IMG/VR virus record: IMGVR_UViG_3300027810_000017
Coordinates: 1-45,599 of that record
DNA from: a virus
Length of the DNA: 45,599 nucleotides
Direction: 5' to 3' (one strand)
Each line of letters starts with the position of its first letter. Position 1 is the first letter of the stretch. Shown here in pieces: positions 1,410-45,599 of this stretch. A model generated the notes under the pieces. That model was not told where the DNA came from. It saw only the letters and a program-made list of their open reading frames with translations, and did no database searches. Made by a program: the position numbers and the translations under genes.

Positions 1410-1466
1410 AGCCAAAGGGTTGAAGCATTGAGGATGATGCGTAAGTTATAACAGATCTGCAGATCT

Positions 1467-1527
1467 ATGAGTGTTTTGGTTAAAGCCGTCGACGACAGGC
1501 AGGGGGTTCGAATCCCCCCACTCAACT
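1467..1527 (+). other. Compact tRNA-like element without a clear anticodon arm
   Basis: TGAGTG (1468-1473) pairs with CACTCA (1519-1524). Directly upstream of that strand lies a perfect T-arm: GGGGG (1502-1506), loop TTCGAAT (1507-1513), CCCCC (1514-1518). The 28 nt between contains GGTTAAAGCC, which resembles the D-arm of class II (Ser/Leu) tRNAs, then a short GTC-GAC-GAC hairpin where an anticodon arm should be. The unit is therefore too short for a working tRNA. Its layout recalls the tRNA-like domain of tmRNA, but I found no tag reading frame. It is followed at once by the next gene's leader. Confidence 0.4.
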
Positions 1528-1541
1528 AAAAACAAATTACA

Positions 1542-1766
1542 ATGATTAGAAAGAAATTACATAAACACCAGGAAGATCCAATTATAATAGATCTTACAGG
1601 CCCAGATGGCAATGCATTTGCCCTTTTGTCTTATGCAAAAAAGTTTAGTGAGGATCTAGATAAACCATATGAGCAACTATTAATTCATATGCAAAGTGGG
1701 GATTATGAAAATTTAATTAAAGTTTTTGATGAAGCATTTGGTGATTTTGTGATATTAGAAAGATAG
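1542..1766 (+). CDS. Hypothetical small phage protein
   Basis: A 74-aa soluble protein with a basic N-terminus (MIRKKLHKHQEDP) followed by a mixed segment IIIDLTGPDGNAFALLSYAK and an acidic helical end. No family name is available to me. The leader AAAAACAAATTACA before the ATG is A-rich like others here. It stands between the structured RNA block and an AT-rich 64-bp spacer (1767-1830), in which I see no confident promoter or terminator. Confidence 0.6.
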   Translation: MIRKKLHKHQEDPIIIDLTGPDGNAFALLSYAKKFSEDLDKPYEQLLIHMQSGDYENLIKVFDEAFGDFVILER

Positions 1767-1830
1767 TTTCAATATTATCATAATATAACTTGAATATATA
1801 AACTAACTTAAGTTTAACATATATTCGAGA

Positions 1831-3123
1831 ATGAACACATTTAACGATTCAGAGATACTGAAAAATTGCCTTGTTGGGGTAGAATTTGAATTCTATTCTA
1901 ATCTACCAATTGATAAAACTGCAAAAGAACTTGCTGGATTATTAAATAAGAAGATTAGAGTAGAGGATAAAGCACATAGTGATTTTGAAGTTACTTCCAG
2001 TGAGTTTAAAATAGAGCCAGATATGAGTGGTGGTGAAAAGCTAATGGAGCTTGTTACCGGCGCACTGCCATATTATAGTGCTAGATTGATGATTATCAAT
2101 GTATGCAAATGGATCGAAGAGAACGGCTACACAAATGATAGATCTTCAATTCACCTAAATTTATCTTTCGATAAAAATAAAATAGAGGACAAGAACAGAA
2201 TTTCTAAAATGAATGTTCTTAAATTTATACTTGACTTTAAAGAGGAAAAAGTATTTAAATTCTTTCCAAAGAGAGAAGATTCAGCGTATGCTAAATCTGT
2301 AAAATTTGTACTACCAAAAGAAGGTATGAGTTTCTTTAACGGAGAACATATACACTCACAGAACTTCATCTACCCTGATTCTAAATACTATGGAATCAAC
2401 TTTGACAAGAGACATAAAAACTATTTAGAGTTTAGATATATCGGAGGGAAGGACTGGGAAAAGAAAACATCATCAATCCTACACTTGTTAGATCAATTCC
2501 TAATACAACTTTGGAATTCAACAGAAGATAAACATTTCAATCCTTTGAACGCAATAGAGTTAAAGAGGATATTGTCTGACAATAAAAGAATAATTGACGC
2601 TAGGTTAAATTGGAGAACAATTGAAAAGGAATGGAAAAACGTAAAGTTTACTGTTGATTTACAAAATGACTCTCAAATTTTAGATTTACACTGGCCTAAT
2701 ATAAAGGACAAGGTGATAAAATTATTTACACACGGATCTCTAGTAAAAGGACATATTAATTACGATTCAGATACAGGTAAGGTTCAAGTAAATGAAGGTG
2801 AATTAAATTACTGTGTTGAACTTGAAAGATACGATTTTATAGGATGCCATATACAAGGTGAATTATACTACTGCGATATGTTTCAATGTACCGTTGAAGG
2901 ATCTGACATGTATGACTGTAACTTTTACGATAGTTGTGAAATAATTTCTTCAAAGATAAAAAGTAGCTATATTCACCAAAGTGTCAAAATAAAAGATGGT
3001 TATATATATGGTGATGGTATCTTAAAAGGTTCTATGGAAGGTGGAATATTTAGAGAAGGAAGATACGATAAAAAAATAGCAAAGTTTAATGGAACTGAAA
3101 AGATTCTATATACTGAAGTTTAA
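1831..3123 (+). CDS. Putative amidoligase (COOH-NH2 ligase fold) with repetitive C-terminal domain
   Basis: A 430-aa protein. The first ~220 residues match the phage amidoligase pattern: the strand LVGVEFEF (14-21) with paired glutamates, ELVTG (73-77), SIHLNLSF (106-113) and LEFRYIGGKDWEKK near residue 200. Family members have a glutamine-synthetase-like fold and form amide bonds using ATP, with modification of proteins or peptides as the proposed role. The last ~110 residues are a run of short repeats rich in aromatic, Cys and Gly residues (IGCHIQGELYYCDMFQC, SDMYDCNFYDSCEI), likely a beta-helix similar to pentapeptide-repeat proteins. It lies 17 bases upstream of structural genes, so a virion protein is a plausible substrate, but this is inference. 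Family assignment is good; substrate is unknown. Confidence 0.75.
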   Translation: MNTFNDSEILKNCLVGVEFEFYSNLPIDKTAKELAGLLNKKIRVEDKAHSDFEVTSSEFKIEPDMSGGEKLMELVTGALPYYSARLMIINVCKWIEENGYTNDRSSIHLNLSFDKNKIEDKNRISKMNVLKFILDFKEEKVFKFFPKREDSAYAKSVKFVLPKEGMSFFNGEHIHSQNFIYPDSKYYGINFDKRHKNYLEFRYIGGKDWEKKTSSILHLLDQFLIQLWNSTEDKHFNPLNAIELKRILSDNKRIIDARLNWRTIEKEWKNVKFTVDLQNDSQILDLHWPNIKDKVIKLFTHGSLVKGHINYDSDTGKVQVNEGELNYCVELERYDFIGCHIQGELYYCDMFQCTVEGSDMYDCNFYDSCEIISSKIKSSYIHQSVKIKDGYIYGDGILKGSMEGGIFREGRYDKKIAKFNGTEKILYTEV

Positions 3124-3139
3124 AAATAAATAATAAAAA

Positions 3140-3970
3140 ATGAGTAATATTTTTGTAGGCGAAGAGTCATGGTTAGACGCTCCAGAATTTGGAAGCGATT
3201 GTTTTAATGCATTTGTATTAGAATTAGCGGAAGACGTTACAGGGTCGTGTATGATTCCTATGAATTTACCTAAAAAGGAAGTTCAAAACATAGTTAAAAG
3301 AGCAAAGAAATGGTTTTATAAAAATTACGAATACTCTGTTAAAGAAAGTTTTGTAGTATTGCCAGTTGCTCTTTTTGATTCAGCTAAATTTAAAGCAACC
3401 AGGTCTTTTACCTTACCAGGACCAGATGCTACAACGGGTGGTAACGAGATATACTCAGTATATGGATGTTCTACTACCGGTTCAAGATGGGGAGGTTCAA
3501 GCGATATTGATTTTCAAAAAGGAGATTTCAGCATGGAAAGAATGATGATGCAAGGAACTTATGGTGGGGCAAATACGGCTGCAGCTGCAGAAAATTTACA
3601 ATCATATGTAATTAATGAAAGTTTTTATGATCTTGCTAGACAGATTATAGATAACCCAATCAGTTTTAATTATAACCAATTAACACATGAGCTTAAATTC
3701 ACAGGAGAAACACCAGCAAGAGACATTATATTAGAAGTTTATGAAACTATTCCAGAATGTGCGCTGTTTGGCGATGAAGCATTCTTTAGATATTGTGCTG
3801 CCAAGATCAAAGTATCTTTAGGTCAAAAACTAGGAATATTTGGATTTACATTGCCTGGAAATATACAAGTAAATGCAGATCTTATACAGGGATTAGGAGA
3901 AGGAGAATTAGAAGCAGTAATTGAAGAAATAAAGAACGACGAAGGAACGGATTGGATGATGCATTCTTAA
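3140..3970 (+). CDS. Virion structural protein, probably neck or baseplate
   Basis: A 276-aa soluble protein starting the structural run, with a 16-base spacer to the amidoligase and another 16 bases to the gp25-like gene. Visible features are a helix rich in Lys and aromatic residues (VKRAKKWFYKNYEYSVKES, about 52-70), a GPDATTGGNE turn, a low-complexity GANTAAAAE stretch, and a C-terminal acidic tail (GEGELEAVIEEIKNDEG). Its position next to baseplate wedge genes and lack of enzymatic motifs point to a tail or neck component. I recall similar proteins in other T4-like marine phages but cannot name a T4 counterpart. Confidence 0.6.
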   Translation: MSNIFVGEESWLDAPEFGSDCFNAFVLELAEDVTGSCMIPMNLPKKEVQNIVKRAKKWFYKNYEYSVKESFVVLPVALFDSAKFKATRSFTLPGPDATTGGNEIYSVYGCSTTGSRWGGSSDIDFQKGDFSMERMMMQGTYGGANTAAAAENLQSYVINESFYDLARQIIDNPISFNYNQLTHELKFTGETPARDIILEVYETIPECALFGDEAFFRYCAAKIKVSLGQKLGIFGFTLPGNIQVNADLIQGLGEGELEAVIEEIKNDEGTDWMMHS

Positions 3971-29427: not shown

Positions 29428-29796
29428 ATGAAAACATTTTTAGACTACATGTCAGAAGCAAACGCAACTGACCAAGAACTTACAATATTACAAGAGTCAC
29501 TACAGACTGAATGGACTGTTGAACTAGAAGAAAAGGTAGATGCTGCTTTAGAAGAATTTGTTTCTGAATACAGGAATGAAGATGGAACTTTCGATATGGA
29601 TAGATTTGATGGAGAGATAACTAATGAAGGTTTATTCGGATCTATATTTGGTGGTTTAACTGGTTTTGCTTTAGGTAAAACAATCGGTAAAACAATTGCT
29701 AAAGTATTAGGTATTGAAAAAGGAGTATTTTATAACATGTTAACTTCACGATTAGTTGGTGCCGCTTTAGGTGCTGCGATCGGTAAAGCTTTATAA
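29428..29796 (+). CDS. Small glycine-zipper protein with capsid-targeting-like N-terminus
   Basis: 122 aa. The N-terminus MKTFLDYMSEA closely follows the T4 internal-protein capsid-targeting sequence MKTYQEFIAEA, and the expected prohead-protease cut would fall after Glu10. The rest is acidic (residues 17-65), then a hydrophobic C-terminal third with GxxxG spacing (GSIFGGLTGFALGKTIGKT, LVGAALGAAIGKAL) typical of glycine-zipper membrane-active proteins. This suggests a head-packaged protein that could act at the host membrane after injection. It sits directly before the resolvase gene with no gap. Targeting is inferred from motif similarity. Confidence 0.6.
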   Translation: MKTFLDYMSEANATDQELTILQESLQTEWTVELEEKVDAALEEFVSEYRNEDGTFDMDRFDGEITNEGLFGSIFGGLTGFALGKTIGKTIAKVLGIEKGVFYNMLTSRLVGAALGAAIGKAL

Positions 29797-35228: not shown

Positions 35229-37937
35229 ATGGCAGAAATTAATAGAATAACGTCCTTTAAGACTTTTTCGGAAATCAAAGCAACTCAAGTTGCTACACAA
35301 TTGGCTGAAGAGAATGCTACAAAGCGTTCTGAATTAGCTACAAAAATATCAACATTGCTTGATGAAATGGAAATTACTTCATTCGAAGATTTAGCAGAAG
35401 ATACTAAAAGAGAATTTATAACTAAAGCATTTGGAAACGTTTCTGAAGAAGAAGTTGAAGTTGAAGTATCTGATGAAATTAAAGATGAAGATTCTGAAGA
35501 AGTTACTGAAGGTAAGGAAGCAGATGAGGCTGAAGCAATCTTAAGTGATCTTTTAGGTGAAAGAGATATGGATGAATTACGTGGTATGTCGATGGAAGAT
35601 GCATTAGATACTGTAGGAGCATATGGACATAAAGGTTCTAAAGCAAAGAAAATTGCACAAGAATTAGTTTCAATGACTAATGAATCAGTAATAAATGAAG
35701 CTAAAGAATTATTTCAATTAGATATTGATTCTGAAGAGCACGGTGCTTTAGGTCTTTCAGTTACTATGAAAGAATTAAAAGATGTTTATAAGAAGAACAA
35801 GAAAAACATTAATGATGTTGAAGATTTATTGTTTCAATTCGTATATGCTCAACCTGAAGATTTTGCTGCAATAGATACGGAAGGTATGGAAATCTCTGGT
35901 GCAAACGTTGGAGACGTACAAACTATGTTATCTAAAGAATTTGGTATTAAAGAAAATGTTCAACACGAACTTAACGAAGCTATTATCGTAACAGGTAAAA
36001 GAGGAGCTAAGAAAGTATTTAATCAATTAGTTAAAATATGGAACGAATATCCTGCATTTGGAGCTAATGATCAATCACATAAATTAGGAGTATTAAAACA
36101 ATTATTCTTTGATGCAATGGAAGATGCAAACTTCTCTAGAGAAGCTTACGCTATTCTGAAAACAATCAAAGGTAATATTAAACCAGTAACTATTAAAGTT
36201 GCAGAATTAGGTGGTGTAGAATTAAAGTTACCAATGCCTAAAATTAGACAAGCTATTTCAGAACTTGCATCTAGAATCGCAACTGCTGGAGAATGGGGTG
36301 GAATTACAATCGTTGAAGGAACAGCAATGTTCTTAGACTATTTAAAAGAAACTAAAACAGCTGAAAATTTACTTAATGGATTTAATGCACAATTTGAATC
36401 AGTTCAAATTATGGAATCTAGAGTTTCTGAAGGAAGAGCATTTGTTGCAGCTGCTAGAAAAGCTAAAGATGAAGGTTTAGAAGAATTTGAATATGACGGT
36501 AAAACTTACCCAGTTCTTTTAAAAGAAACTAAAACGGTTTTAAACGAAGGAACAAGAGGTCAATTTGGTAAAATAGATAAAAAAGGAAATATTACTTCTG
36601 TATATATGCATTACGATTCATATCCAGAAAATATTCTACCAATTATCAAACAATCATTTAAAGGTGGTAAAAATGTTGATGTTGTTATTTCTAAAGGAAA
36701 CAACTCAGGATTAGATAAAAATGTTGATGCAATAAACTATTATAACGACGAATCTGCTGGAGAAACAGGAAATGTTAAAAAGATAGACAATTATCTTAAA
36801 ACAGCAAGTAATGATAGTGGTGCAGAATATGTATACCTATGGGACGAAGGTTCTAAAACTTGGATGATGGCAGATATTTACGGAGGTTCTGGATTAGTTC
36901 CAGCCTTTGAATCTGTAGTTACTGAAATAGAAGAAATTGAAGAAGGTAACGCTTTCGGAGATGCAGTTAAAAAAGCTAAAGAAGCTGGAGAAAAAGAATT
37001 TGAATTTGAAGGTGAAACTTTCAAGGTTGAAGAATCAGAAGAAATTCCAGTTATCGAATCATGTGAAACTTGTGGAGAACAAACATGTGAATGTGCATCT
37101 GAAGAAGTTGAAGAAGCTAAAGTAAACGAAAATCCTGCATTAGTAGCATTGGCTGCAGCAGAATTACTTAAGAAGAAAGAAGAAGAAGCTAGACCAGAAG
37201 ACGAAGAAGAAGAGGTTAACGCTGAAGAAGACGAAGTTGAAGAAGATGAATTAGAAGAATCGGCATTAGTTGAAGCTAAATCAATTAAGGTTACTAAGAA
37301 AGAATGGCCCTATGTTGAATTTAAAATAGGTAGTACAAAACATAAAGTTGAATTTGATTACGAAGATATAATTGATGATCATGGTAATGAGGGTCAAGAT
37401 CAATTCTGGTTAGGTAAAGATGATGATGGTAAAGAATGGTCTATCGATGTTTACGCTGATTATAATGGTGATGTTCAAGATGTTCATTATGATACTATCG
37501 TTGCCGAATCAGTAATTGCTGAAGGTAAATCAGGAGTTAATACATTCCTAGCAAATATCGCTAACGACTATCAATTTGATAAAAAGCACGATCATTATTC
37601 AGGATTTCTAAACACAGAACCAAGTGATATGGGTGACGATGCTATTGAATTTATTAATAACGTTGATAAATATAAATCATTAATGAAAAAACACGGACTT
37701 TCATTAGAACCTGGATATAGTGATAAAGAAGCAATATTTGTTAAAGAATCAGTAGTTAACGAAGCAGAAATTAAATCTGACGAAGAGTTTACTGAATACG
37801 CAAATACTGTTTTAAAACAAGCATTCGGAGAAGATTTTGACGAAGCTAAAGCAAAAGAAGTTATTGATGGTATCTTATCTAAAAGCGACGGAGATTACGG
37901 AGCTGCAGTTGGAATGTTAACATCTTCATTAGGATAA
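35229..37937 (+). CDS. Putative head-packaged polyprotein with at least seven prohead-protease-like sites
   Basis: 902 aa. Candidate cut sites of the form [I/L/V]xE before Ala or Gly occur after Glu157 (SVINE), 250 (HELNE), 401 (RVSE), 440 (TVLNE), 572 (IEEIEE), 682 (ALVE), 765 (VIAE) and 845 (VVNE). They fall between distinct segments: a helical domain (251-400); a 39-residue mini-domain (402-440) repeated at 573-605; a domain starting TRGQFGKIDKKGN with YMHYDSYPEN (442-570), which resembles a small family seen in bacteria and phages; a Cys cluster CETCGEQTCEC (612-622); an acidic tract (650-678); and three small C-terminal pieces. The first ~100 residues are a charged leader. Cleavage in the prohead is inferred from T4. 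It ends at a strong terminator. Confidence 0.6.
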   Translation: MAEINRITSFKTFSEIKATQVATQLAEENATKRSELATKISTLLDEMEITSFEDLAEDTKREFITKAFGNVSEEEVEVEVSDEIKDEDSEEVTEGKEADEAEAILSDLLGERDMDELRGMSMEDALDTVGAYGHKGSKAKKIAQELVSMTNESVINEAKELFQLDIDSEEHGALGLSVTMKELKDVYKKNKKNINDVEDLLFQFVYAQPEDFAAIDTEGMEISGANVGDVQTMLSKEFGIKENVQHELNEAIIVTGKRGAKKVFNQLVKIWNEYPAFGANDQSHKLGVLKQLFFDAMEDANFSREAYAILKTIKGNIKPVTIKVAELGGVELKLPMPKIRQAISELASRIATAGEWGGITIVEGTAMFLDYLKETKTAENLLNGFNAQFESVQIMESRVSEGRAFVAAARKAKDEGLEEFEYDGKTYPVLLKETKTVLNEGTRGQFGKIDKKGNITSVYMHYDSYPENILPIIKQSFKGGKNVDVVISKGNNSGLDKNVDAINYYNDESAGETGNVKKIDNYLKTASNDSGAEYVYLWDEGSKTWMMADIYGGSGLVPAFESVVTEIEEIEEGNAFGDAVKKAKEAGEKEFEFEGETFKVEESEEIPVIESCETCGEQTCECASEEVEEAKVNENPALVALAAAELLKKKEEEARPEDEEEEVNAEEDEVEEDELEESALVEAKSIKVTKKEWPYVEFKIGSTKHKVEFDYEDIIDDHGNEGQDQFWLGKDDDGKEWSIDVYADYNGDVQDVHYDTIVAESVIAEGKSGVNTFLANIANDYQFDKKHDHYSGFLNTEPSDMGDDAIEFINNVDKYKSLMKKHGLSLEPGYSDKEAIFVKESVVNEAEIKSDEEFTEYANTVLKQAFGEDFDEAKAKEVIDGILSKSDGDYGAAVGMLTSSLG

Positions 37938-37999: not shown

Positions 38000-39292
38000 A
38001 TGAAAAAACCTATTTTAACATACGAACAGTTTCTTATAGAGAGATCTAATACGAACGTACAAGACTCTCAATTAATATTAGAAGGAGGAGCAGCAGGTCA
38101 CATGAAGCACCCCTTTGATGATCAATCATTAACATTTGGAGATTTTAAAAAGATAGTACATGCTGGTTTACAGGGTGAATTAAACTTTGAAGAAGAAGCA
38201 ACTGAAAAGACAGATGGTCAAAATGTATTTGCAACAGTACAAGATGGTGAAGTTAAATTTGCTAGAAACAAAGGGGATATGAAAAACCCAATGTCTCTAT
38301 CTCAATTTAAAGACAAATTCGATGGACATCCAAGTAAATTAGTTCAAGACACTTTTCAATTTGCTGCAGAAGATTTAGCAGGTTCATTAAATAAATTATC
38401 CCCTAAAGATTTAGAGATATTTGATAATGGTAAGAACTTCATGAACATGGAGCTTATTTACTCTAAGAATCCAAACGTTATATATTATGACAGAGATGTT
38501 ATTCAATTCCACGGAATTAAAGTAACTGATGGTGAAGGTAATATTATTGGAGAAGAAACTAAGTATGCTAATAGTATTGCAAAAGCACTAAAAGATTTAA
38601 AACTTAATATTGGAAAAACATTTACAGTGATTCCACCTCAAGTTATTAAACTAGGTAAAGATATTGACTTTGAAACAAATAAGAATAAATTCATAAAAAA
38701 GGTAGAGGATCTAAAGAATCGTTATAATTTAACAGATGCTGATGAAGTTTCTAGATATCACGAAATGTGGTGGAGAGAATTAATAGAATCAAACTTTCCA
38801 GATTTAACACAAGACCATAAAGAAGGTTTGTTATTAAGATGGGCATATGGAGATAAAAAGACTCTTAACTTAAGATCTTTAGATAAAACACTAGGAAAAG
38901 ACAAAGCATCAGTTATTAAGAAATTCGATAAAGAAGATTTTAAAAAGAAACAAAAGGAAAATATTAGACCATTCGAAGACCTTTTCTTAGAATTAGGTAG
39001 TGTTATTCTTAAAAATGCAAGTAACTTTGTTGCTGCTAATCCTGATAAGGAGATGCAACGATTACATACTCAAATTAGAACTGAAGCTGACAAGATTAAA
39101 AAAGGTGGAGGTGCAGAACAAGTTAATAAAGTAATTGCAGAATTAGACAGATTAGATAGAATCGGAGGTATTGAATCTATAATCCCAACTGAGGGAGTTG
39201 TATTTGTATATAAAGGTAAAGTTTTTAAACTTACTGGAACATTTGCAGCAATTAATCAATTAATGGGAATCATTAAATACGGAGGAAGATAA
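38000..39292 (+). CDS. Polynucleotide-ligase-fold nucleotidyltransferase with capsid-targeting-like N-terminus
   Basis: 430 aa. Motif I is EKTDGQN with Lys70 as the likely AMP-accepting residue. Motif III-like NMELIYSK has Glu151, and FHGI is at 170-173. Motif IV is EGVVF (398-402) and motif V VFKLTG with Lys410. These are the signatures of ATP-dependent RNA/DNA ligases, though no known ligase subfamily is matched and the helical insert (about 230-390) is unusual. The N-terminus MKKPILTYEQFLIE resembles the T4 capsid-targeting peptide, and LILE28|GG is a second [I/L]xE|G site just before the conserved GGAAGHMKHPFDD. This suggests a ligase carried in the head and trimmed to begin GGAAGH. Likely substrate is nicked or broken RNA; unproven. 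Confidence 0.68.
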   Translation: MKKPILTYEQFLIERSNTNVQDSQLILEGGAAGHMKHPFDDQSLTFGDFKKIVHAGLQGELNFEEEATEKTDGQNVFATVQDGEVKFARNKGDMKNPMSLSQFKDKFDGHPSKLVQDTFQFAAEDLAGSLNKLSPKDLEIFDNGKNFMNMELIYSKNPNVIYYDRDVIQFHGIKVTDGEGNIIGEETKYANSIAKALKDLKLNIGKTFTVIPPQVIKLGKDIDFETNKNKFIKKVEDLKNRYNLTDADEVSRYHEMWWRELIESNFPDLTQDHKEGLLLRWAYGDKKTLNLRSLDKTLGKDKASVIKKFDKEDFKKKQKENIRPFEDLFLELGSVILKNASNFVAANPDKEMQRLHTQIRTEADKIKKGGGAEQVNKVIAELDRLDRIGGIESIIPTEGVVFVYKGKVFKLTGTFAAINQLMGIIKYGGR

Positions 39293-41250: not shown

Positions 41251-42972
41251 ATGGAAAATCAACATAGCGATCAACCAGGTAAATTGAACGAGAAAAAGCT
41301 AGTAACAAAAAGAGCTTATACTGAATCACACCCTGCAAAAACGGTTGGAATGACAGCTAAGATCAGAAATAAAATGTTAGAAGCTATCAAGGATGGTAAA
41401 GTAGCAACTGGTGAATTTGATAGAATTTTAAAGGAACTTTCATCTAACTCTAAGAGATGGATGAATAGAAATGGTAAATTATTTAATGTTTCTGAGGAAG
41501 GAATTTCATTATCAACTTTAGGAAAAAGAATTCTTAAAGGAATTACAGTAAACGAAGCTACCGAAGAGAATCCGGAAGTATGGGTTCCTAGTGGATTTGA
41601 TAAAGCAATTTCAAAATTGCCAAACAGTCAAGTAACATTAGATGTAGTTAAAAAACTAGCAAAAAAACATAAAGTATTTATTGAAGATGCTATAAAATAC
41701 GTTGAGTATGGATGGGCACTGGATTTACAAGAGAACAAAAACACGCAAATTATGAAAACTAAATTAGTAACGGAATCTTTTCAAGAATTTATTAGTGTAA
41801 ACGAAGCAACCGTTGTTATGGATGCAACACAACCTGATGATAAAGCCTTTTTAAAATTCTTAAAAAAGAACAAAGTATCAATCGAAGTTATTGATCAAAA
41901 CGGTCCTTCAGGATTTCCAGAAGTTGAACTAACAGGAAAAAGAGAAGATCTTGAAAAAGTTTTAGCATCTCCAGACGGATGGGATGATGCTGATTTAGCA
42001 GAATACATTGAAGAATCAGTAGTTAACGAAGCATTTAAATCTTCTAAGTTAAGAAACTTATTAACAATGACAGATTCAATGACATACGGCGATAAAGCAG
42101 ATGCTGCATTACCTAAAGCATTTTATCAATTAACTAAAATGAAATTAGATCAAATCGGAGACGAAGATTTAATCGACATGACACCTAAAGAAGCTTATAA
42201 AGCATATGCTAACGATAGAGACACTGTAGTATTTTATATAGTTGATAATGACAAAGCAAATCCATTCGGAACAGGACAAGTTGCTCCTGGTGTTTTAGCA
42301 TTAACAAGAGGAAAAGATTTCTTAGGAGTTCAATATGAATCAACAGGATATAGAAGAAAGAAGAACACTAAAACTTTAAAAGGTGGAGATGATAGAATGG
42401 CAGTTGGTGGTAACAAAGCATATAAAGGATACGATGCAACAGGAATAGCTTCAATTAAAAGAGCGGCTGATTTAGCAGATAGAGCAGTAGCATTTAGTTT
42501 AGTAAATACTGCAAAATCTTCTAAGGAAGATATAGCAATGAGAGTAGATCAAAAATCTGGAGCTACTGCATTTATGAATGATAAAGACTTTAAAGATGCA
42601 AACTCATCAAGATACAAAGAAATATTAGCAACTAAAGCTTCTAAATTACCATTAGATAAAATGGTTAATGACGCAATAGACGATTTATCATCGCAAATCA
42701 AAAATGGTTTAGCTAAAGGTGAAAAAGGAAGATATGGAGATATCCTTATTGGAAGAACATCTAAGGATAGAGAGGTTAAAATGAGAGACGCATCTAATCA
42801 TATGTCTAGTATATTAGACGATTATTCAAGATACGTTGATTATACTAAACAAGCTGAAGAAGCTAAAGCAGATAAATACTCATCTAGCTACTACGAAAAG
42901 GAAGTTAAAAACTACGCCAAAGAAATTAAAGATAAATGCGCTAAAATCAAGAAATTTGATTACGCTTGGTAA
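41251..42972 (+). CDS. Putative head-packaged polyprotein with three sites and an internal targeting sequence
   Basis: 573 aa. Candidate cut sites follow Glu102 (TVNE|A), Glu185 (SVNE|A) and Glu260 (VVNE|A). Residues 168-186 (MKTKLVTESFQEFISVNEA) look like a complete T4-type targeting N-terminus (MKTYQEFIAEA) placed inside the chain. Predicted pieces are a basic helical domain (30-102, MTAKIRNKMLEAIKDGK), a short helical piece (103-185), a small alpha/beta piece (186-260, FLKFLKKNKVSIEVIDQNG), and a 313-residue C-terminal protein, basic and helical, with no recognised family. It could be DNA-binding inside the head. The stop is one base before the ATG of the next gene. Confidence 0.6.
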   Translation: MENQHSDQPGKLNEKKLVTKRAYTESHPAKTVGMTAKIRNKMLEAIKDGKVATGEFDRILKELSSNSKRWMNRNGKLFNVSEEGISLSTLGKRILKGITVNEATEENPEVWVPSGFDKAISKLPNSQVTLDVVKKLAKKHKVFIEDAIKYVEYGWALDLQENKNTQIMKTKLVTESFQEFISVNEATVVMDATQPDDKAFLKFLKKNKVSIEVIDQNGPSGFPEVELTGKREDLEKVLASPDGWDDADLAEYIEESVVNEAFKSSKLRNLLTMTDSMTYGDKADAALPKAFYQLTKMKLDQIGDEDLIDMTPKEAYKAYANDRDTVVFYIVDNDKANPFGTGQVAPGVLALTRGKDFLGVQYESTGYRRKKNTKTLKGGDDRMAVGGNKAYKGYDATGIASIKRAADLADRAVAFSLVNTAKSSKEDIAMRVDQKSGATAFMNDKDFKDANSSRYKEILATKASKLPLDKMVNDAIDDLSSQIKNGLAKGEKGRYGDILIGRTSKDREVKMRDASNHMSSILDDYSRYVDYTKQAEEAKADKYSSSYYEKEVKNYAKEIKDKCAKIKKFDYAW

Positions 42973-42973
42973 T

Positions 42974-44725
42974 ATGAAAGAATTAGAAGAAAATATAACA
43001 ACAAGTTCTATTACAGGAATGGGGGAGGTTACCCTACCAACAGCAACGCAAAATGGATCAGGGGATGTTCCTGCTAATTCAGGAGACGCTGAAAAAGAAT
43101 ATAAAAAGAAAAAGAAGAAAATGAAAAAATTACTAACATTTGAATCATATGTTAACGAAGCTAAATTTGACAAAAAGAAGTTAATGAAAGCGATGAAAAT
43201 GGATGATGGTATTATTCAATTAGCAAATGGTGATGAATTTATCATATACAACCCAGATAATGGAAATGACGAAAACACTGCAATGTGGAATGACAAAGTT
43301 ATATTTGCATTAGATCAAGACGGTGAAGAACACGAAGTTAAATATTCTGACATTGTAAGTTATAATGAATCAGAAGTTAACGAAGCATTTTCTAGAATGT
43401 CTAAGGATACGATAGAAAATGAATTATACGCTGCTTCACAAGCACTAACAACTTATTATGATTGGCTCAAAGCTGGAAATGATTCAGGTAAAGGCGAATC
43501 AATAGATCATGTTATATCTCTATTGAAAAAATGTAAAAGTAATATTAAAAGGTTTAATAAACCAGAAGAAGTTAAAGATACTGCATACGAATCATTAGTA
43601 AACGAAGCAGTTTCAAAGACTACTAAGATATATCAAATTGCAACACCAGCTCCTAAGAAGATGTTGGTTGAAGAGTTAGAAAACTTATTTGGTGATGATT
43701 ACAGACATATTGTTACTGAATTTGATGACAACGAAGGATATGAATCTGTACTAGTATTTAATCTTACAAATAAAGATATTCAGAGAATACAAAATGAAAT
43801 TGCAGATGTTTTAATTTGGGAATACTCAATTAAAAAAGGCAAAGAAATTACAGAATCATTAGTTACTGAAAAATTTAAATTTAGTAAAAAAGAAGTAGAA
43901 GCTGCTGCTAACTTAATAGCATCTGCAATTTCTCAAGCTGATATGGTTAAAGCAAAGGTACATGACTTAGAATATGTTAAAGGTAAAGGAGCTGGTTTTG
44001 AAATTTCAATTGACGGTGAAAAATATGATGGTGGAAGCTATGTAGTAAAAGATAACGGAGATGTTGTTAATGCTGCAATCGGTAACTCACATCCAAATGC
44101 AGTATACAATACAATAGGTAATAAAGATATTGCAGATGTTTTCATCAATATGGAAAAGTATGAATCATTAGTTTCTGAAGCTAAATTTGTAAAAGAATTT
44201 AACAAAGAAGTTTTAGATGCAAAAACAAAAGAAGAAGTTACAAAAATTTATCCAAATGCAAAATTCTATGTTGGTAAGTCAGATCATTTCTTCGGAGAAC
44301 TAGATGCTAATTTATTCTTTAAAGCATATTATACTAAAGCACAAAAAGAATTTGAAATCAAATCAGTTTACTCTGGTAAAGGAAGTACATACGTTCATTT
44401 ATACAATGAATCAATAGTTAATGAAGCAGCTACAAAATCTGCAGGTCTTGTACAATTTGCAGCAGATGAAAAAGCTGAAGGTAAAAATGCAGAAATTCAT
44501 TTAGCAACCTTTGATGGTTCTGGAATGGAAGCTCAATCAACTAATAAAACATGGGATGATGGTGTTCCAGTAACAAAGAACTTTACAAGAGGAGGTTACA
44601 AGAGAGTAGCACCTAAAGGAGAAGTTTATATTATAGAATCAGACAATTGGTGGTATTTCACATATAAAGCAGTATGGTATGCCGTTAAGAGAAAGGATTA
44701 TGGAACTCCTCCATTTGAATATTAA
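42974..44725 (+). CDS. Putative head-packaged polyprotein with six repeated ES-x-V-x-E sites
   Basis: 583 aa from ATG 42974, one base after the preceding stop; an upstream in-frame ATG at 42836 lies inside the previous gene and is rejected. Sites follow Glu62 (ESYVNE|A), 137 (ESEVNE|A), 211 (ESLVNE|A), 299 (ESLVTE|K), 402 (ESLVSE|A) and 484 (ESIVNE|A). They split the chain into small unrelated pieces of about 75 to 100 residues, such as KFDKKKLMKAMKMDDGIIQL and KTTKIYQIATPAPKKMLVEE. The N-terminus is a Gly/Ser/Thr region and a poly-lysine stretch (42-52). Met50 starts MKKLLTFESYVNEA, itself like a targeting N-terminus, so an internal start at 43121 is possible. No enzymatic motif is recognised. 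Confidence 0.62.
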   Translation: MKELEENITTSSITGMGEVTLPTATQNGSGDVPANSGDAEKEYKKKKKKMKKLLTFESYVNEAKFDKKKLMKAMKMDDGIIQLANGDEFIIYNPDNGNDENTAMWNDKVIFALDQDGEEHEVKYSDIVSYNESEVNEAFSRMSKDTIENELYAASQALTTYYDWLKAGNDSGKGESIDHVISLLKKCKSNIKRFNKPEEVKDTAYESLVNEAVSKTTKIYQIATPAPKKMLVEELENLFGDDYRHIVTEFDDNEGYESVLVFNLTNKDIQRIQNEIADVLIWEYSIKKGKEITESLVTEKFKFSKKEVEAAANLIASAISQADMVKAKVHDLEYVKGKGAGFEISIDGEKYDGGSYVVKDNGDVVNAAIGNSHPNAVYNTIGNKDIADVFINMEKYESLVSEAKFVKEFNKEVLDAKTKEEVTKIYPNAKFYVGKSDHFFGELDANLFFKAYYTKAQKEFEIKSVYSGKGSTYVHLYNESIVNEAATKSAGLVQFAADEKAEGKNAEIHLATFDGSGMEAQSTNKTWDDGVPVTKNFTRGGYKRVAPKGEVYIIESDNWWYFTYKAVWYAVKRKDYGTPPFEY

Positions 44726-44744
44726 AATAAATAAATAAACAATT

Positions 44745-44783
44745 ATGAAACACGTACAATTATTTGAACAATTTATAAACGAA
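44745..44783 (+). repeat. 39-bp direct repeat, copy 1 (targeting-peptide codons)
   Basis: Identical to 45201-45239 at every base, covering codons 1-13 of the gene here. Identity stops exactly where the predicted mature protein begins. Confidence 0.9.
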
Positions 44784-45188
44784 GCAACTTGGGACCAAGG
44801 AGTCTATGGTACAGAATCATATCCTATAACTGATGGAGATTTAGGTACAGCGGCTTTTAACGGAAGACAGCTTGGTAGATATAAGTCAAGTGAAGCTAAG
44901 GAAATATGGAAAAAGCAAGGTACTGTAGTTTCTAATAAGAACGAGTATTCAACTCAAAAATTAACAGATGCTGCGTATGCTTTATCGGAACAAGGTGTTC
45001 AAGTTAAAGAAAAACAAATCCAGAAAGGTATCTTAGTTTGTAAAGAATTTAAGTATCAATTCACAGGAGGACAATGGCTTGCAACTTTCGGTAATAGAGA
45101 ACAGGCAATGAATATTTATGAATTTATCGAAGCAACTGTTGCATCGAAGTATATCTGGGAGGGTGATAAGACTTACGGAACAAAATAA
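44745..45188 (+). CDS. Predicted head-packaged protein with capsid-targeting-like N-terminus
   Basis: 147 aa. The N-terminus MKHVQLFEQFINEA matches the T4 capsid-targeting pattern (basic start, aromatic-x-x-Phe-Ile, then IxE|A), with the expected cut after Glu13. The mature part would be a 134-residue alpha/beta protein (WDQGVYGTESYPITDGDLGT, LVCKEFKYQFTGGQWLATFG) of unknown function. Its first 39 bases are identical to the start of the next gene. It follows the polyprotein gene with a 19-base AT-rich spacer (TAAATAAATAAAC). Confidence 0.68.
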   Translation: MKHVQLFEQFINEATWDQGVYGTESYPITDGDLGTAAFNGRQLGRYKSSEAKEIWKKQGTVVSNKNEYSTQKLTDAAYALSEQGVQVKEKQIQKGILVCKEFKYQFTGGQWLATFGNREQAMNIYEFIEATVASKYIWEGDKTYGTK

Positions 45189-45200
45189 TAAAATAATAAA

Positions 45201-45239
45201 ATGAAACACGTACAATTATTTGAACAATTTATAAACGAA
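45201..45239 (+). repeat. 39-bp direct repeat, copy 2 (targeting-peptide codons)
   Basis: Second copy of the repeat at 44745-44783, covering codons 1-13 of this gene. Identical synonymous codons imply recent duplication or gene conversion of the leader alone. Confidence 0.9.
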
Positions 45240-45599
45240 AAAGTATACAGAATGACTGGAATCTATAGTTCTAAAGGATTAGTAGGTAAGGTAATGCAGG
45301 CATTTAAGAAAACTATAGAAAAAGTTTCTTATGAAGGAGATCAAAAAGCAACATTAGCCGAGGTTAATAAAGCATGGTCAAGTTTTAAATCAACCGGAGA
45401 AAAGATTATCTTAGATGTTGTTGAAAAAGGGGCAAAGAGTATGGATTCAGTATTATTCGTAACAGCTAATCTAGATAAAGGATTTCATATTGACGAAATT
45501 AATAAATTAAACAGCGAAGATTCTAACCAATTATTCGTTGGATATGAATTAGTAATTAACGTTGGATTTATGGATGATGTTAACGGTAGCAAATTGTAT
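45201..45599 (+). CDS. Predicted head-packaged protein, 3' end cut by window edge
   Basis: At least 133 codons, open at the window end. The N-terminus MKHVQLFEQFINE is identical to that of the preceding gene, but is followed by Lys rather than Ala and then an unrelated mature sequence (VYRMTGIYSSKGLVGKVMQA, VLFVTANLDKGFHIDEINKL). The shared leader with different bodies is what one expects for a targeting peptide moved between cargo genes. No family is recognised. The spacer to the previous gene is 12 bases. Confidence 0.65.
   Translation, partial: MKHVQLFEQFINEKVYRMTGIYSSKGLVGKVMQAFKKTIEKVSYEGDQKATLAEVNKAWSSFKSTGEKIILDVVEKGAKSMDSVLFVTANLDKGFHIDEINKLNSEDSNQLFVGYELVINVGFMDDVNGSKLY

Follow-up and report, generated by a model that had tools for sequence, protein, structure and literature searches.

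We report that the 902-aa ORF of the window, that is, the whole 45,599-nucleotide stretch of viral DNA analysed here, consists of successive cassettes with predicted prohead-protease sites like those of T4 gp21 at their borders, and that, as judged from sequence comparison, related viruses swap these cassettes at the predicted cut sites, both between polyproteins and between phages. Probably, the ORF is from a T4-like phage and encodes the polyprotein from which proteins of the capsid interior are made, with cleavage, packaging and ejection being inferred and no cleavage or virion data being available. The features are collected in the table, where a vertical bar marks a predicted cut.

Table. 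Features of the 902-aa ORF and of its neighbours in the window
Feature	Position (nt)	Strand	Basis or remark
Predicted capsid-cargo polyprotein ORF, 902 aa	35229..37937	+	homologues L001-L015
N-terminal cassette, residues 1-94, MAEINRITSFKTFSEI..., candidate targeting domain	35229..35510	+	nearly always first
Cassette 95-157	35511..35699	+	follows a site in several other polyproteins
Cassette 158-250 (AKELFQLD...)	35700..35978	+	[ILV]xE precedes start in 4/4 contexts
Cassette 251-396 (AIIVTGKR...), predicted fold mainly helical	35979..36416	+	23 contexts, AF2
Predicted prohead-protease site VSE401|G402	36423..36434	+	motif
Mini-domain copy 1, residues 402-429, helix + beta-hairpin	36432..36515	+	profile, AF2 model, alignment score
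Predicted site LNE440|G441	36540..36551	+	edge of linker with pLDDT <50
phrog_1987 cassette, residues 441-572 (GTRGQFGKID...)	36549..36944	+	PHROG E 1.9e-13
Predicted site IEE572|G573	36936..36947	+	motif, AF2 model
Mini-domain copy 2, residues 573-600	36945..37028	+	profile, AF2 model, alignment score
Cassette 683-760	37275..37508	+	92% identical to L005 303-380, a different polyprotein
Cassette 766-840	37524..37748	+	contexts in other polyproteins
C-terminal cassette 846-902, usually last	37764..37934	+	P1 Glu 100%, P3 hydrophobic 95%
Neighbour with leader MKKPILTYEQFLIE...LILE|GGAAGHM	38000..39292	+	leader pattern
Second polyprotein-like ORF, site-bounded cassettes	41251..42972	+	homologue L010
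Third polyprotein-like ORF	42977..44725	+	homologue L005 begins MKELEEN
Small protein, capsid-targeting-like leader MKHVQLFEQFINE|A	44745..45188	+	leader pattern

Cassettes and predicted cut sites

The 902-aa ORF contains 11 [ILV]xE|[AG] sites, compared with 4.0 ± 1.9 in shuffled sequences, and the motif was observed at the starts of cassettes. In the homologous contexts of cassettes 251-396, 441-572, 766-840 and 846-902, P1 was Glu in 100% and P3 was hydrophobic in 95-100% (both 100% over the 23 contexts of cassette 251-396), with P2, P4 and P5 varying more than P1 and P3. Hydrophobic residues made up 85-100% of P3 at cassette starts versus 21% in the background, and P1′ varied among G, A and S, with R or K at some boundaries. 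Cassette 683-760 has a lowered boundary score because its start follows E|K in three of the contexts read.

Shuffling of cassettes was observed. Among 114 non-redundant polyproteins, the ends of alignments with at least 50% identity fell at sites 3.2-3.6 times as often as at random, while the values for three decoy motifs were 0.4-1.9. The same set contained 644 sites versus 201 in shuffles, but part of this enrichment is built in, as the polyproteins had been selected by their number of sites; the breakpoint test suffers less from that circularity. A counterpart of residues 441-566, 61% identical, lies in L010, the homologue of the neighbouring polyprotein. The N-terminal cassette kept its place, 60 of 63 homologous matches beginning within 10 residues of the N terminus, and so did the C-terminal cassette, with 47 of 61 complete matches ending within 5 residues of the C terminus. 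The content of the middle was very variable, and coarse clustering, which merges some types, gave 36 cassette orders among 53 complete polyproteins.

It is very improbable, in our estimate, that the protein remains unprocessed and that xxE|G/A merely marks linkers or caps the helix of the mini-domain described below, being kept by recombination at these places. Such a protein would be compatible with the absence of cleavage data and with the retention of Glu-Gly without a hydrophobic P3 (KNE|G); however, a hydrophobic P3 beside freer P2, P4 and P5 resembles a protease signature, and the decoy motifs mark the boundaries less well.

A natural comparison is offered by the cassette of phrog_1987, a family of unknown function that matches this one cassette only (residues 441-549 against profile positions 2-116 of 128). 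Its start (GTR) follows [ILV]xE|G in nearly all polyprotein contexts. Cyanophage S-T4 encodes it as a protein of its own, M-GTRSLIGK, and at two other loci (L173/L179) it stands behind a 19-residue capsid-targeting-like leader, MNNIKNFNDFINESQEINE|GTRSQFGK, an arrangement like that of T4 internal proteins. Since both forms begin with GTR, the predicted cut would leave the cassette with the same N terminus as the free-standing protein, except for the Met of the latter.

No Pfam domain scored above the cut-off in the 902-aa ORF or in nine other polyproteins, and no known function was found for any cassette of the ORF. Many linkers are acidic. In one linker of the homologue L001 (4001-6673), EEVEET-type hexamers follow one another and may represent a repeat-expansion tract.

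In the AlphaFold2 model of residues 402-602, each mini-domain is a helix plus a hairpin (block pLDDT about 69-83), the central domain is confident, and stretches of pLDDT <50 lie at 440|441 and 572|573 (model residues 31-38 and 162-172), between the predicted domains. The model of residues 251-440 (mean pLDDT 88) has one helix that continues across 401|402, and this site may therefore need local unfolding or be cut less well. A full-length alignment in which cassette fragments were misaligned was left out of folding. A PDB fold search with both models returned no match at E ≤ 0.001 (best Z 4.0), so no fold-based function is offered, and profile searches of PDB sequences gave chance-level matches only. 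The tblastn matches to gh-1 gp16 and SPFM1 were discarded, the motif being absent when the sequences were read.

A repeated mini-domain at the predicted boundaries

The first-pass annotation had described a repeated mini-domain of 35-39 residues, each copy beginning right after a predicted cut. The repeat is real and lies where it was placed (residue 402 at nt 36432 and residue 573 at nt 36945), but the conserved core of the two copies, 402-429 and 573-600, is 28 residues long. The local BLOSUM62 score of copy 1 against copy 2 is 75, reached by none of 20000 shuffles (maximum 55), and either copy against the rest of the ORF scores only 25-27 at best. Each copy indeed starts at the P1′ position of a site, VSE401|G and IEE572|G; the chance of two given positions of the 902-aa ORF both being at a site is about 1.5e-4. 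The next site follows after 39 residues in copy 1 and after 30 in copy 2, where it is VEE|S with Ser at P1′.

Copies of the mini-domain were sought across 181 related loci. An IMG/VR protein search gave 15 loci, a search with eight copies added 80 and one with the phrog_1987 cassette a further 80, some contigs being shared. A profile built from the eight copies was run at E < 1e-6 over 2659 ORFs, which came from the loci, from the window and from a small number of named phage records. P1 was Glu in 107 of the 111 distinct copies and P3 was I, L or V in 92, while P1′ was Gly in 99 and Arg in 11. The full [ILV]xE[AG] motif occurs in 83, and those without it mostly have Arg at P1′ (11) or another P3 residue (Lys in five). 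Because P1′ varies and P3 is K or T in some copies, some may escape cutting. The 111 copies are mutually related and thus are not independent events. In the relatives, the commonest spacing from the mini-domain start to the next site is 29-30 residues, and some proteins carry 30-residue copies head to tail, such as L060 at residues 127 and 157. One genome from each of 84,980 bacterial and archaeal species yielded a single relative, on a contig labelled Prochlorococcus (VDE|G...VEE|S).

These data support the proposal that the repeat unit is tied to the predicted protease boundary, as the neighbouring cassettes are likewise. A mini-domain found mostly without adjacent sites in homologues would have refuted it; this is not the case in close homologues, since sites adjoin most of the 111 copies. 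Distant look-alikes differ: in podoviruses, crAss-like phages and a microvirus, unrelated proteins carry a similar motif internally or at their ends, but without the protease site. The tie to the site therefore belongs to the T4-like group and not to the fold, and the lack of Glu-Gly in these look-alikes also argues against its being a helix cap in an unprocessed protein. The look-alike query was composed by ourselves, so the look-alikes are only a lead: the Rhizobium phage copy of the wider phage motif [ST]FxxAFxxARxxGxxxFxWxGKxYxT scored 11 bits, and the BFVD matches, including A0A6S4PCI0, were short (25-43 columns).

The mini-domain is the most recurrent cassette, 28-30 residues forming a helix plus hairpin between predicted cuts. 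A second short unit, GLTxAQEKLPEPLKKAILKKQ, was seen directly after [LVF]xE|G at four loci (L084, L087, L098 and L072) and is repeated in some proteins.

Protease, capsid genes and leader-bearing neighbours

The window is a fragment and contains no protease gene. Of 14 related contigs bearing such genes or cassettes, 10 encode a PF03420 (gp21 family) protease, that of L004 among them, and 8 encode a capsid protein of the gp23 family. In four of the five proteases read, the protease comes first in the chain and is joined to a scaffold-like region, with sites along the whole protein (635-638 aa in L190, at 1429-3342, L182 and L186; 414 aa in L183), and the fifth, from the contig of L025, has 197 aa. 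In most capsid proteins of these phages, the motif stands close to the N terminus (LINE|A). The nearest named relative by UvsW (56%) is LR756500, a 462-kb uncultured phage with a shorter protein of 287 aa at the place of the 902-aa ORF.

The mini-domain also occurs within the protease-scaffold protein of L190 and, in another phage (L181), in the gene just upstream of the protease gene. Given its presence in the protease-scaffold protein, the mini-domain is most likely a prohead-core-binding or spacing element, a role that is inferred without binding data. The same placement, together with the acidic linkers and the propeptides of SPN3US, which undergo several cuts and are for the most part cleared (PMC10052503), would also fit a disposable, scaffold-like prohead-core protein whose sites serve to chop it for exit, the mini-domain being a core-assembly element and not cargo. 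We consider this unlikely, as the conserved cassettes have a confident predicted fold and free-standing relatives, the sites lie between domains, and the middle is very variable in content, unlike that of a structural core protein.

Short capsid-targeting-like leaders are clear in neighbouring genes and in other polyproteins. On the 902-aa ORF, which begins MAEINRITSFKTFSEI, a short T4-type leader is not evident because the first canonical site is residue 94. Besides the ORFs at 38000 and 44745, those at 29428-29793 and 45201-45599 in the window bear leaders. Over all loci, leaders like those of T4 internal proteins (e.g., MKHVKLFEQFINE|x) were found on 152 of 1092 ORFs of at least 90 aa, by a loose pattern with no chance rate. 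As far as such patterns can tell, the leader-bearing small proteins suggest a large set of putative capsid-internal proteins. The product of 38000..39292 has a KTDG motif reminiscent of nucleotidyltransferase ligases and no family match. The likely start of the third polyprotein-like ORF is ATG 42977 (MKELEEN), the listed TTG 42836 overlapping the previous gene.

Proposed mechanism and comparison with known systems

In the mechanism that we propose for the cargo precursor, the fixed N-terminal cassette probably brings the precursor into the prohead core, where the gp21-family prohead protease of the phage would cut the [ILV]xE|x sites between cassettes. The cutting would free separate small proteins, which would stay in the head and probably be ejected along with the DNA. 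Our data suggest that a single precursor gives rise to many of the internal head proteins. More tentatively, and with some doubt on our part, a large group of environmental T4-like phages may carry their head cargo as polyproteins of about 5-15 protease-released, exchangeable cassettes, with a 30-residue mini-protein for core binding or spacing and with injected proteins gained by swaps.

To our knowledge, cargo polyproteins are not known from tailed phages, and no report of a T4-like cargo polyprotein was found in an open-licence library of papers. If the chain is cut in the prohead, a single gene could supply the capsid with many proteins at a fixed ratio, and the cut sites would be evolutionary joints for gaining new injected proteins. 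The capsid cargo of uncultured phages could then be listed directly from sequence, and a number of uncharacterised small proteins would become available for study.

Polyvalent proteins (Iyer et al., 2017, PMC5512222) are likewise multidomain phage proteins that are thought to be packaged and injected. However, they carry known enzyme domains, and some have their own peptidase; Pfam revealed no effector enzyme domain of this type in the 902-aa ORF and nine other polyproteins, and the sites here match the prohead protease. Head and ejection proteins of SPN3US/phiKZ are cut after Glu by a gp21-related protease, with several cuts per chain, but in those phages the additional cuts serve to degrade long propeptides, whereas here the sites separate folded cassettes that recur elsewhere.

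The closest likeness is to T4, in which IPI, IPII, IPIII and Alt have capsid-targeting sequences that are cut by gp21, and which provides the precedent for a mechanism of targeting, cutting, retention and ejection (PMC9026906). Positions 8 and 10 of the 10-residue T4 leader set its processing (PMC9026906); they correspond to P3 and P1 here. Shared with the T4 internal head proteins are the Glu-directed cut with a hydrophobic P3 (predicted here), the protease family PF03420, short leaders of the same type on neighbouring genes, and fast-evolving cargo behind a conserved leader, although no short leader is evident on the 902-aa ORF itself. As far as sequence can show, membership of the T4 type is supported by the predicted sites at cassette boundaries and by the gp21-family protease on related contigs. 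The difference is one of number: each T4 protein has one leader and one mature product, whereas here about ten cassettes and many sites lie in one ORF.
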